In this document: piece after piece, positions 58,639-61,844 of the stretch
How positions within the stretch are numbered: the first letter of the stretch is position 1
How the letters are laid out: every line of letters starts with the position of its first letter
From: Nocardioides sp. GY 10127
GTDB taxonomy: Bacteria; Actinomycetota; Actinomycetes; Propionibacteriales; Nocardioidaceae
Direction of reading: 5' to 3'
Length of the DNA: 64,000 bases
Assembly: GCF_004919085.1 (NCBI RefSeq)
Contig: NZ_STGL01000008.1
Span: 186,001 to 250,000, forward strand
Translations under genes and position numbers: made by a program
The notes under the pieces: generated by a model
Seen by the model: the letters and a program-made list of their open reading frames with translations, nothing else
Told to the model about the DNA's origin: nothing
Databases searched by the model: none

Positions 58639-58812
58639 CCAAACTTTGGGACGCATTTGGGACAGACCCCCGCACACAGCCGGTCACCGTCAGACACAGC
58701 CGGACACGACGAAAGAGCCCCTGGCCGGCGTTTCCGCTGGTCAGGGGCTCTTTGTCCTGCTGGTGGCAGATCCAGGATTCGAACCTGGGAAGCTTTCGCG
58801 ACGGATTTACAG
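58634..58812. repeat. Chromosomal att copy at the intact tRNA-Tyr (att3)
   Basis: Repeats att2 (47092-47268) through the terminator and tRNA 3' half to ATTTACAG at 58812, within the anticodon arm. Integration between att2 and att3 bounds an ~11.5-kb element; att1 and att2 bound the decayed ~2.1-kb one. Confidence 0.85.
58715..58750 (-). terminator. Rho-independent terminator of tRNA-Tyr
   Basis: GAGCCCCTGGCC (58715-58726) pairs with GGTCAGGGGCTC (58739-58750) with one wobble pair. As read on the minus strand it follows the tRNA 3' end and is followed by TTTC. The same hairpin is copied at both island att sites. Confidence 0.85.
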
Positions 58813-58844
58813 TCCGCTCCCATTGGCCGCTCGGGCAATCTGCC
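58761..58844 (-). tRNA. tRNA-Tyr (GTA)
   Basis: Cloverleaf: acceptor GGCAGAT with ATCTGCC (7 perfect pairs), discriminator A, encoded CCA (58763-58761), long variable arm of class II type, T-arm GGTTCGAATCC. Anticodon GTA at 58810-58808 in the loop CTGTAAA. Length about 84 nt with CCA. Serves as the insertion site of the genomic island. Confidence 0.95.
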
Positions 58845-58968: not shown

Positions 58969-59460
58969 GTGGCCGACTCGTCGTTCGACATCGTCAGCAA
59001 GCTCGACCGCCAGGAGGTCGACAACGCCCTGAGCCAGACGGCCCGCGAGGTCGCCACCCGGTACGACTTCAAGGGCACCGGCGCCACCATCGAGTGGAAG
59101 GGCGAGCAGGGGATCGAGATCAGTGCCTCCGCCGACGATCGCGCCTCCGCCGTCCTCGACGTCTTCAAGGAGAAGCTGATCAAGCGCAGCGTCTCCCTCA
59201 AGGTCCTCGACGCCTCCGAGCCCCGCCAGTCGGGCCAGCAGTCGAAGATCGACATCGCGCTCAAGGAGGGCATCACCTCCGAGGACGCCAAGAAGATCTC
59301 CAAGCTCATCCGCGACGAGGGCCCCAAGGGCGTCAAGGCGCAGATCCAGGGCGACGAGCTCCGCGTCTCGTCCAAGAAGCGCGACGACCTCCAGGCCGTC
59401 ATCTCCCTGGTCAAGGGCCAGGACTTCGACTTCGCGGTGCAGTTCACCAACTACCGCTGA
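58969..59460 (+). CDS. yajQ: YajQ family nucleotide-binding protein, 163 aa
   Basis: A DUF520/YajQ protein (ferredoxin-like double domain; cyclic-di-GMP binder in some bacteria). [37 protein letters not shown], and the C-terminus VQFTNYR are signature sequences. GTG 58969 follows AGGAGAGG. Upstream of a HEPN/MNT pair whose far end duplicates the 19 nt coding FTNYR-stop. Confidence 0.93.
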
Positions 59461-59552
59461 TCCGGCGCATTTGCGCTGGCCAGCGCGTTGTGGCGTGCGG
59501 CCGGTCCACAGGAGTCCGGACGCCGACCTGGCGCATGGGCTCACTCGCGGCT

Positions 59553-59576
59553 GACCGCGCGCGATCCCGCGCGGTC
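59553..59576 (+). terminator. Hairpin terminator after yajQ
   Basis: GACCGCGCG (59553-59561) and CGCGCGGTC (59568-59576) form a perfect 9-bp stem with a 6-nt loop. A smaller palindrome GCGCTGGCCAGCGC lies at 59473-59486. Confidence 0.5.
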
Positions 59577-59703
59577 GGCCGCACGTGGCCGGCGCCGTTG
59601 CGGTCCAGCAGGGCGTCACCTGACGGGAAGAGCCAGCCCTCCTCGCCGTGCCGACGAGCATGAGGAGGTCGGTGAGCCGAGTGCGAGGCCGACCCGAGGC
59701 GCC

Positions 59704-59723
59704 CAATAACACTTGCTATATTG
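59704..59723 (+). promoter_or_regulatory. Promoter/operator of the HEPN/MNT pair
   Basis: CAATA (59704-59708) and TATTG (59719-59723) form an inverted repeat that overlaps a -10-like TATATT (59717-59722). The ATG at 59729 is only 6 nt past it, so the transcript may be leaderless and the antitoxin HTH may bind here for autoregulation. Confidence 0.5.
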
Positions 59724-59728
59724 AGCGA

Positions 59729-60196
59729 ATGTCCACGCTTGCCGAGGTCGCGCAGCGCTCTGACGAGGCGGTGGCACGAGCGCGCCGTGACCTCGTCGAC
59801 GCGGTGCGTCGCGCTCACGCCCAGGGGATGACGCAGGCGGAGATCGCCACCGCGATCGGTCGGAGCCAGCCAGAGGTCTCCCGCCTGCTCCGGTTCCACG
59901 GCACGAGCCCGCGAGGCATGGCCCTGCGCAAGCACCGGGCCGAGATCCTCGGCCTCCTCGAGGAAGCCGGCGGATCGAACGTCCGCGTCTTCGGGTCCGT
60001 CGCGACGGGGCAGGATCATGACGGCTCCGACATCGACCTCCTCGTCGACCTCCCCACCGACGTCGGCCTCGTCCAGGTCTCGCGCCTGGAGCGGAAGGCG
60101 TCGGAGGTGGTCGGCATGCCTGTCGACATCGTTCCGAGCGACGACCTTCGCCCGGAGTTCGAGGAACGGGTCCTGCGGGAGGCGGTCGCACTGTGA
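59729..60196 (+). CDS. MNT-type nucleotidyltransferase antitoxin with N-terminal HTH, 155 aa
   Basis: N-terminal HTH MTQAEIATAIGRSQPEVSRL (residues about 34-55) followed by a minimal nucleotidyltransferase domain VRVFGSVATGQDHDGSDIDL (GSxxxG...SDxD). In MntA/HepT systems the MNT protein AMPylates and inactivates the HEPN partner. The stop overlaps the next gene's GTG (GTGA). Flanked by the yajQ repeat. Confidence 0.85.
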   Translation: MSTLAEVAQRSDEAVARARRDLVDAVRRAHAQGMTQAEIATAIGRSQPEVSRLLRFHGTSPRGMALRKHRAEILGLLEEAGGSNVRVFGSVATGQDHDGSDIDLLVDLPTDVGLVQVSRLERKASEVVGMPVDIVPSDDLRPEFEERVLREAVAL

Positions 60197-60552
60197 GCAG
60201 GACGGTCGAAGAGCTGTTGACCGAGGCGCTCGTCCACTTCGACGCAGCTACCGCGTACGCCGAGACCACCACCACGGATCCCCAGCTCGTGGTGGACGCG
60301 ATGTCGATGCGGCTCTTCGCCGGCCTCGAGACGCTCACCCGGCTGCCCGATGGCGTCGCCGAGCGACTCTTCCCCGGCGAGTGGCCCGACATGCGCGGCC
60401 TGCGCCACCGGATCGCCCACGGCTACGGCGCGATCAACCTGATGCGCGTCCGGGCAACCGTCACGGGCGACCTCCCGAACGCCGTCGCAGCCATTCGGCG
60501 AGAGCTCGATCAGTCCGGACCCAGCCCGCAAGCGATCGAGGAACCGTCCTGA
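60193..60552 (+). CDS. HEPN-domain toxin (HepT-like), 119 aa
   Basis: Helical protein with the HEPN RNase motif R-x4-H in GLRHRIAHGYGAI (about residue 77). The usual Rx4-6H plus Tyr is present. Expected to cleave RNA when not AMPylated by the coupled MNT partner. GTG 60193. Confidence 0.85.
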   Translation: MSRTVEELLTEALVHFDAATAYAETTTTDPQLVVDAMSMRLFAGLETLTRLPDGVAERLFPGEWPDMRGLRHRIAHGYGAINLMRVRATVTGDLPNAVAAIRRELDQSGPSPQAIEEPS

Positions 60553-60683
60553 CCCAGGGTTCCGAGCCTGACCCGACGACCCCTGATGCACGCTCCAGCG
60601 ACCTGCTGGAAGCACCGGCTCTGTCCACCAACTACCGCTGAGCGCCGCGCGGCGGGAGGAGCGACGCGGCGCCTCCCGTCGCG

Positions 60684-61844
60684 TCAGCGCGCCAGCAGGC
60701 CGATGCCCGCGCGGACCACGCGCCGGTCCCACGCCCGGGCCAGCGTGGTCTCGCCGCGGGTGAGCCGGGCGAACGAGCCCCAGCCGGGGCCGGCGAGCAG
60801 GTGGTGGAAGGCGGCAGGTCGCTTCTCGAACGCGGCCAGGCAGCGGCGTCCTGCCGCCATCTCCGGCAGGAGGTCCGCGGCCAGGGCCGCCTCGTAGGAC
60901 GAGACCAGCCCTCCGAGGTGGGAGGTGGACGCCGTGCCGAGGGCGTGCTCGGCGGCCACCCGGCCCGCGGCCAGGCCGGAGCGGACGGCGAAGGAGATCC
61001 CCTCCCGCGTCCACGGCTCGAGCAGCCCGGCGGCGTCCCCCGCGACGAGCAGGCTCCCCCGACCGAGCGGGGAGTCCGGCGTCCGGCAGCGCGTGAGGTG
61101 CCCGGAGTCGTGCCGCACCCGCAGGCCCCCGAGCCCCTGCTGGGCCACGAGGTCGCGCAGGTAGGCCTTGGTCTCGACCGGCCGCCCGGTGGCGGCGATG
61201 ACGCCGACGGTGAGCGAGTCCCCCTTGGGGAAGACCCAGCCGTAGGAGCCGGGCAGCGGGCCCCAGTCCAGGTGCACGCGGTCGGCCCACGCGGCGGCGA
61301 GCGGGCCGGCGTCCAGCTCCAGCTCGACGCCGAGGTCGGTCTCGGCGAGCCGGACTCCCACCGCCCGCGCGACGCGGCTCGACGTGCCGTCCGCGCCGAT
61401 GACGACGGACGCCCGCACCGGCCCCTCCGACGTGCTCAGCTCCACCGGGCCCTCGCCCTCGCCGGCCCCGGCGGGCAGCGCCCCCACCGAGACCCCGCAG
61501 CGCAGCTCGGCGCCGGCCTCGACAGCGGCGTCGGCCAGCCAGGCGTCGAGCTCGGTCCGCGCGGAGGTGCGCAGCACCGGGCCGCCGTCCGGGCTCCGGC
61601 GTTCCTTCGGCGACCCGCCGCGCAGCGTCATGGTCACGCGCGCGATGTCGGCCCGCACCGGCGGCGCCCCGGGCAGCGCCGCGAGGGTCGGCCCGATCAG
61701 CCCGCCCCCGCACGTCTTGTAGCGCGGCAGCACCGCCTTCTCCAGGACGACGACCCGGGCACCGGCCTGCGCCGCCGCCCGGGCCGCCGACGAACCGGCC
61801 GGGCCGGCCCCGACCACCACGACGTCGACGTGCTCTGCTGCCAC
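60684..61844 (-). CDS. Geranylgeranyl reductase family FAD protein, 386 aa
   Basis: Flavoprotein of the GGR/digeranylgeranyl-phospholipid reductase family: VVVVGAGPAGSSAARAAAQA, RYKTCGGGLIGPTLAAL, VVIGADGTSSRVARAVGV, WVFPKGDSLTVG, and LVAGDAAGLLEPWTREGISF. In actinobacteria such enzymes reduce isoprenoid chains (menaquinone, lipids) among others. GTG 61844. Precise substrate unknown. Confidence 0.85.
   Translation of the reverse strand: MAAEHVDVVVVGAGPAGSSAARAAAQAGARVVVLEKAVLPRYKTCGGGLIGPTLAALPGAPPVRADIARVTMTLRGGSPKERRSPDGGPVLRTSARTELDAWLADAAVEAGAELRCGVSVGALPAGAGEGEGPVELSTSEGPVRASVVIGADGTSSRVARAVGVRLAETDLGVELELDAGPLAAAWADRVHLDWGPLPGSYGWVFPKGDSLTVGVIAATGRPVETKAYLRDLVAQQGLGGLRVRHDSGHLTRCRTPDSPLGRGSLLVAGDAAGLLEPWTREGISFAVRSGLAAGRVAAEHALGTASTSHLGGLVSSYEAALAADLLPEMAAGRRCLAAFEKRPAAFHHLLAGPGWGSFARLTRGETTLARAWDRRVVRAGIGLLAR

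Follow-up and report, generated by a model that had tools for sequence, protein, structure and literature searches.

Within the window, by which we mean the whole 64,000-nt stretch of Nocardioides DNA analysed, the 3′-end of yajQ is followed by a HEPN/MNT gene pair, a second copy of the yajQ terminal sequence and a hairpin. The yajQ (DUF520) gene occupies 58969..59460 of the plus strand (Pfam PF04461, E 2e-61, and its open reading frame), and its last 16 nt form the attachment core described below. On the same strand lie an MNT antitoxin gene (59729..60196; PF01909, E 1e-11), which encodes a nucleotidyltransferase with the motif GSX10DXD behind an N-terminal HTH-like part whose HTH matches are weak, and a HepT-like HEPN toxin gene (60193..60552; PF01934, E 5e-8, and open reading frames), which overlaps the MNT gene by 4 nt and carries the motif RX4HXY as RHRIAHGY, so that the pair is motif-complete. 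Further to the right, a hairpin (60642..60690) belongs to the native DNA beyond the insertion, at a position that fits the empty site of relatives, and a geranylgeranyl-reductase-like FAD gene (60684..61844, minus strand; PF01494), convergent to yajQ, forms the native right flank; it adjoins yajQ also in the genomes G171, G180 and G085. The identities of yajQ, MNT and HEPN agree with a preliminary description made from the sequence alone, and Pfam concurs; the hairpin which that description had placed behind the right repeat copy was likewise recovered, 60640-60690 folding at −38.4 kcal/mol. Just upstream of yajQ, a tRNA-Tyr gene lies antisense at 58761-58844; tRNA genes are classical island sites, yet it is yajQ and not this tRNA gene that was used here.

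The direct repeat that had been claimed for the yajQ end, 19 nt long with one mismatch, was borne out at its coordinates: GTTCACCAACTACCGCTGA (59442-59460) and GTCCACCAACTACCGCTGA (60623-60641) share an exact core of 16 nt, CACCAACTACCGCTGA, which is found on the plus strand at 59445..59460 as the yajQ end (attL side) and again at 60626..60641 (attR side). With up to three mismatches allowed, the repeat search matched the 19-mer at these two places alone in the window, compared with a mean of 0.01 over 100 shuffles, and the 16-mer at up to one mismatch had no match in the whole window genome other than the 59445 and 60626 copies. When the left copy is counted to yajQ, the borders of the insertion are 59461 and 60641, and the element measures 1,181 bp. 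What was identified within these 1.2 kb is the MNT gene, the HEPN gene and an integrase fossil only.

Relatives lacking the HEPN/MNT pair present this site empty. The yajQ end is uninterrupted in G171, where the FAD gene follows ~50 nt on, and in G180, where it follows within ~10 nt; in G085, likewise devoid of the pair, the yajQ-FAD spacer is longer. The DNA match of G171 to the right part of the window starts at 60623, on G171's own yajQ end, and the window without 59461-60641 aligns through the junction with gaps of at most 11 nt against G171 and at most 24 nt against G180. The preliminary description had predicted such a continuous alignment with relatives lacking the pair, and its main claim, insertion into the yajQ 3′-end with restoration of the target, is supported by these two genomes. 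The empty site in G171 and G180 upholds the reading as an insertion. An identical core at each end, the left one completing yajQ, is what a site-specifically integrated island would show. A pair ancestral at yajQ is not supported, given the empty sites.

A search for the 16-mer across 215 genomes of the genus, one mismatch at most being tolerated, gave a match in 187 and two or more matches in 23. In 12 of these 23, a further copy follows downstream on the contig and strand of yajQ itself, at a distance from yajQ of 0.23 kb (G075), 0.52 kb (G103), 0.73 kb (G096), 1.18 kb (G000, the window genome), 1.35 kb (G161), 2.0 kb (G050), 2.15 kb (G210), 4.6 kb (G209), 14.2 kb (G032), 16.4 kb (G022), 38.2 kb (G188) and 51 kb (G051). 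To these 12 are added G089, where the yajQ end itself is diverged and the second copy lies 2.6 kb downstream, and G127, both copies of which carry the variant core CCAGAACTACCGCTGA and lie 6.6 kb apart. In all, counting the window genome, 14 genomes thus repeat the yajQ end 0.2-51 kb further downstream, a count that more divergent yajQ ends would escape. An exact second copy on another contig was found in three of the 23 (G083, G120, G146), a second yajQ gene accounted for the second match in two (G093, G168), and in six (G058, G079, G082, G095, G116, G201) a copy with one mismatch was found at a great distance or on a different contig. The same repeat, which the preliminary description had proposed to look for at other yajQ genes, is thus present there and bounds different cargo. 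These sequence comparisons indicate that in this genus the end of yajQ has served repeatedly for attachment. In G118 (L014), an inverted copy of the yajQ end stands just behind yajQ after a short loop and would form a long hairpin with the end of the gene itself.

Tyrosine integrase genes adjoin the site. Seven genomes carry one antisense behind yajQ (G022, G032, G188, G051, G083, G146 and G127), and in G210 the yajQ-side integrase is broken. The integrase frame ends at most 30 nt from the yajQ stop in five of the six genomes measured, three of the frames overlapping the stop by ~10 nt; that of G032 ends ~580 nt away. When the G051 integrase was searched against the 215 genomes, its top six matches after itself were the other six yajQ-side integrases, which are called related on these search scores, and among the best 30 loci at most per search, yajQ lay within the 1.5-kb flank of the integrase in these seven genomes only. 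The G022 island contains terminase, portal, major head and tape-measure genes; therefore at least one of the islands using the site is a prophage or phage-like. At the small end of the range stands the 2.0-kb element of G050. It has a core at each end, with one mismatch in the right copy, and an arm pair at each end, and it holds 62 residues of an integrase together with MNT and HEPN genes of its own; from its sequence, it is best read as an intermediate in island decay.

The ends of the islands are further marked by paired arm sites. At the left end, the pair AGTCCGCA-N3-AGTCCGCA starts 33 or 43 nt past the yajQ stop, and the same pair recurs at the right end, ~126 nt before the second core. 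A pattern search with four mismatches allowed, for which the background is 28 matches among 5000 random 90-nt pieces of the window, placed arm pairs inside the left end of 11 genomes out of the 14 and inside the right end of eight; both pairs are absent in G161, G075 and G089, and the right pair is absent in G096, G103 and G209. Given these absences, not every second core is proven to be an att site. The short bounded elements of G161 (L123) and G075 (L124) have a common right flank, and that of G161 encodes an ANTAR-domain protein. Among 14 further yajQ loci without a second copy in the stretch, the left pair was present in four (G083, G146, G120, G049) and absent at the other ten tested (G090, G082, G092, G193, G171, G180, G085, G047, G091, G080). 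Right arms precede the other-contig copy in G083 and G146, not in G120.

An arm model was built from 17 arm pairs of other genomes, the window's own arms being excluded. Its top match in the window on both strands at the usual spacing is the degenerate paired right arm AGTCCGGACCCAGCCCGCA at 60512..60530 (plus strand; 16.3 bits, next 8.6), inside the HEPN 3′-end. At the usual spacing the best left-end site of the window ranks just 151; with a spacing of 10 nt instead of 11, which was tried on the plus strand only and after the sequence had been seen, the degenerate paired left arm GGTCCACAGGAGTCCGGA at 59503..59520 (plus strand) ranks first (15.4, next 8.9). Its offset of +43 from the yajQ stop is that found in G050, G051, G209, G096 and G049, and both window arms carry substitutions. 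Also part of the left arm is TTTGCGCTGGCCAGCGCG (59470..59487, plus strand), with TTTGCGCAGGTCAGCGCG as its match at an equal distance in G050. The left ends of the window element and G050 align with a score of 54, reached by 0 of 500 shuffles, and the right ends share a 44-nt match, likewise reached by 0 of 500; the left end of the window element matched G051, G209 and G090 at the DNA level no more closely than shuffled sequence did. In the window, the right arm falls within the HEPN frame, and the same applies to G050 with its diverged HEPN (38% in the part that matched). Because of this position, the last dozen residues of the HEPN toxin are encoded in apparent att DNA.

Immediately behind yajQ, the window itself retains a fossil of the 3′-part of a tyrosine integrase gene (59498..59647, minus strand), recognized by alignment to the integrases within an antisense frame at 59444-60019. 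It consists of GEEGWLFPSGDALLDRNGAGHV plus PTARDRARSAASEPMRQVGV, with ~55 codons missing between the two. The segment GEEGWLFPSGDALLDRNGAGHV aligns to residues 283-304 of the G146 integrase with a score of 74, compared with at most 56 in 300 shuffles, and the second segment, directly after it, aligns to the last part of the G050 integrase remnant. Against this remnant the score is 74, compared with 46 for the highest among 947 other stretches in the six frames of the window, and none of 1000 shuffles matched it. The fossil frame also scored above shuffles against the integrases of G032, G188, G083 and G146, and did not against those of G022 (59, shuffles to 81) and G051 (59, shuffles to 59). 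Taken alone against single integrases, the second segment is weak (32-38); it is firm because the G050 remnant and the left-end DNA match to G050 support it. The preliminary description had stated that no recombinase is present in the 1.2 kb, which is correct for an intact gene, none being present within 59461-60641, and has to be amended for the fossil. Since only a 3′ fossil of the integrase remains, the element is termed a relic here. A strong hairpin (59535-59595, −43.6 kcal/mol) lies within the fossil and perhaps now serves as the yajQ terminator.

The HEPN/MNT pair, judged from its motifs, would presumably work as a type VII toxin-antitoxin. The MNT protein matches PDB 1wot, and the HEPN protein had no match among solved structures in the PDB at E up to 1. 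A HepT profile searched in 18 genomes detected the toxin at yajQ only in the window genome and in G050; no profile-detectable HepT was present in the elements with an integrase frame that were read core to core (G022, G032, G188, G051 and G127), and a parent island with the integrase and the HEPN/MNT pair together was not found in this search of 18 genomes. The profile can miss fragments, because it is silent on the truncated HEPN genes at the yajQ loci of G082 and G092. The window genome contains a second, better HepT-like gene (G000:C13:194960-195244, E 2.5e-21). For MNT, one scan of 79 loci in named genomes returned no flank with yajQ or with the core.

MNT genes also occur near yajQ without the repeat. 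At least four of the 56 other MNT places listed lie at most 2 kb downstream of yajQ (G082, G092, G193 and G050), a tally counted by hand with the yajQ position known for part of the genomes, and the repeat is present in G050 only. G082 carries a related MNT (59%) 0.1 kb behind yajQ, between yajQ and the FAD gene, with a HEPN broken after ~22 residues; G092 carries an MNT (71%), accompanied by a 62-residue HEPN frame, 0.8 kb behind yajQ; and G193 carries a remote MNT (41%) 1.4 kb behind yajQ. None of these three has a second core beside it or arms. In a tree of 22 rows, the window MNT groups at moderate support (91/78, 84/89) with that of G054, which is located elsewhere than at yajQ, and with that of G092; G082 has no resolved placement in this tree. 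The MNT genes of G082, G092 and G193 may come from relics of this kind at a later stage of decay, or they may have been acquired separately. The preliminary description had counted an ancestral pair with the 60623 copy absent as evidence against its reading, a point that G082 and G092 touch in part; the empty sites still back insertion. In G082 (L023, minus strand, 2709-2990), a GC-rich repeat (CTCGTCGCTGGCGCTC...TCGACCACCGG) stands in several copies behind the broken HEPN gene; it may be a REP-like family by which the gene was interrupted.

We propose, with a probability of roughly 0.9, that 59461-60641 is the relic of an island which was integrated site-specifically at yajQ by its integrase and later lost most of the integrase gene. 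A tyrosine integrase would have recombined the 16-bp core on the incoming island with the matching yajQ end, leaving a core at each end and yajQ complete. Integration presumably proceeded via a circle, and which of the two core copies is island-derived, like the order of events given here, would follow from this scheme. The integrase gene would have followed yajQ directly in antisense orientation, so that its 3′-end and the left arm sites overlapped. Deletions would afterwards have taken most of the island, including the part of the integrase that we take to be catalytic, so that the left core, the degenerate arms, the integrase 3′ fossil, the motif-complete MNT-HEPN operon and the right core were left over. 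The pair probably arrived with the island rather than joining later, and its addiction effect would be the reason why this piece survived.

The fossil and the degenerate arms bear on the proposal of the preliminary description that a minimal toxin-antitoxin cassette had integrated by itself, for which they substitute the remnant of an integrase-bearing island. That description had also left open whether the recombinase was lost or acted in trans; loss is retained, and action in trans is disfavoured by the same two features. In its fuller form, the latter would be a non-autonomous cassette that never had an integrase of its own and was moved by the yajQ-specific integrases of passing islands. 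The cores, identical over 16 nt, could still make the site a substrate for such movement, and other very small bounded elements are found (G096, 0.73 kb; G103, 0.52 kb); an integrase fossil inside the element and degenerate arms are nevertheless not what it leads one to expect, and the window genome has no close member of the yajQ-side integrases, its best match being only 39% and on another contig (C10). We regard this explanation as improbable.

Less probable still is a chance repeat or gene-end conversion, with the pair added by ordinary illegitimate recombination. Related MNT genes that stand behind yajQ without the repeat, at 0.1 kb in G082 and at 0.8 kb in G092, would suit such an origin; the chance estimate of 0.01, and the finding of arms and fossil at the predicted places, give it very little room. 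The direct repeat around cargo, of a size that some transposases make, might alternatively be the target-site duplication of a transposase that inserted the pair. Here the same target with a 16-nt copy recurs elsewhere around different cargo of 0.2-51 kb, related integrases adjoin the site, and no inverted repeat is found at the ends of the 1.2 kb; the Pfam check for a transposase covered the MNT and HEPN proteins only. Contradicted by the recurrent exact target, this last origin was rejected as having next to no likelihood.

A search of non-subscription papers, whose single hit concerned another subject, found no report of yajQ as an integration site, attB or integrase target, and the yajQ site and its integrases seem undescribed; the integrase-less island relic would be a known kind of thing at an apparently unreported site. 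The results provide a recurrent attachment site at the yajQ 3′-end, the integrases and arm sites that go with it, and elements graded in size from an island of 51 kb down to relics of 0.5-2 kb. With such a series one can test whether, through addiction, toxin-antitoxin pairs persist longer than the remainder of an island in decay. As a tentative and rather doubtful extension, decaying yajQ islands might tend to keep HEPN/MNT, addiction fixing the last kilobase, and an att arm might have become the toxin 3′-end in two diverged HEPN genes (window genome and G050), so that the toxin would sit at the extreme right end of the island.

Among known systems, the element resembles a CIME (PMC5704250) in that integration genes are missing and the attL and attR cores are kept; it differs in that the islands at yajQ are not shown to be conjugative, one of them (G022) being prophage-like, and in that the window arms are eroded. 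In Shewanella (PMC8978831), genomic islands reside in the conserved yicC gene and HipAB is their stabilising toxin-antitoxin system; a conserved protein gene as site and a toxin-antitoxin system as cargo are common to both cases, whereas here the gene is yajQ, the genus is another, and a 1.2-kb relic carries HEPN/MNT. Finally, HEPN-MNT type VII modules are characterized (PMC11586414) by RX4HXY in HEPN and GSX10DXD in MNT, both of which the window pair shares; it differs in that its MNT has an N-terminal HTH-like part and its HEPN tail appears to be written on an att arm.
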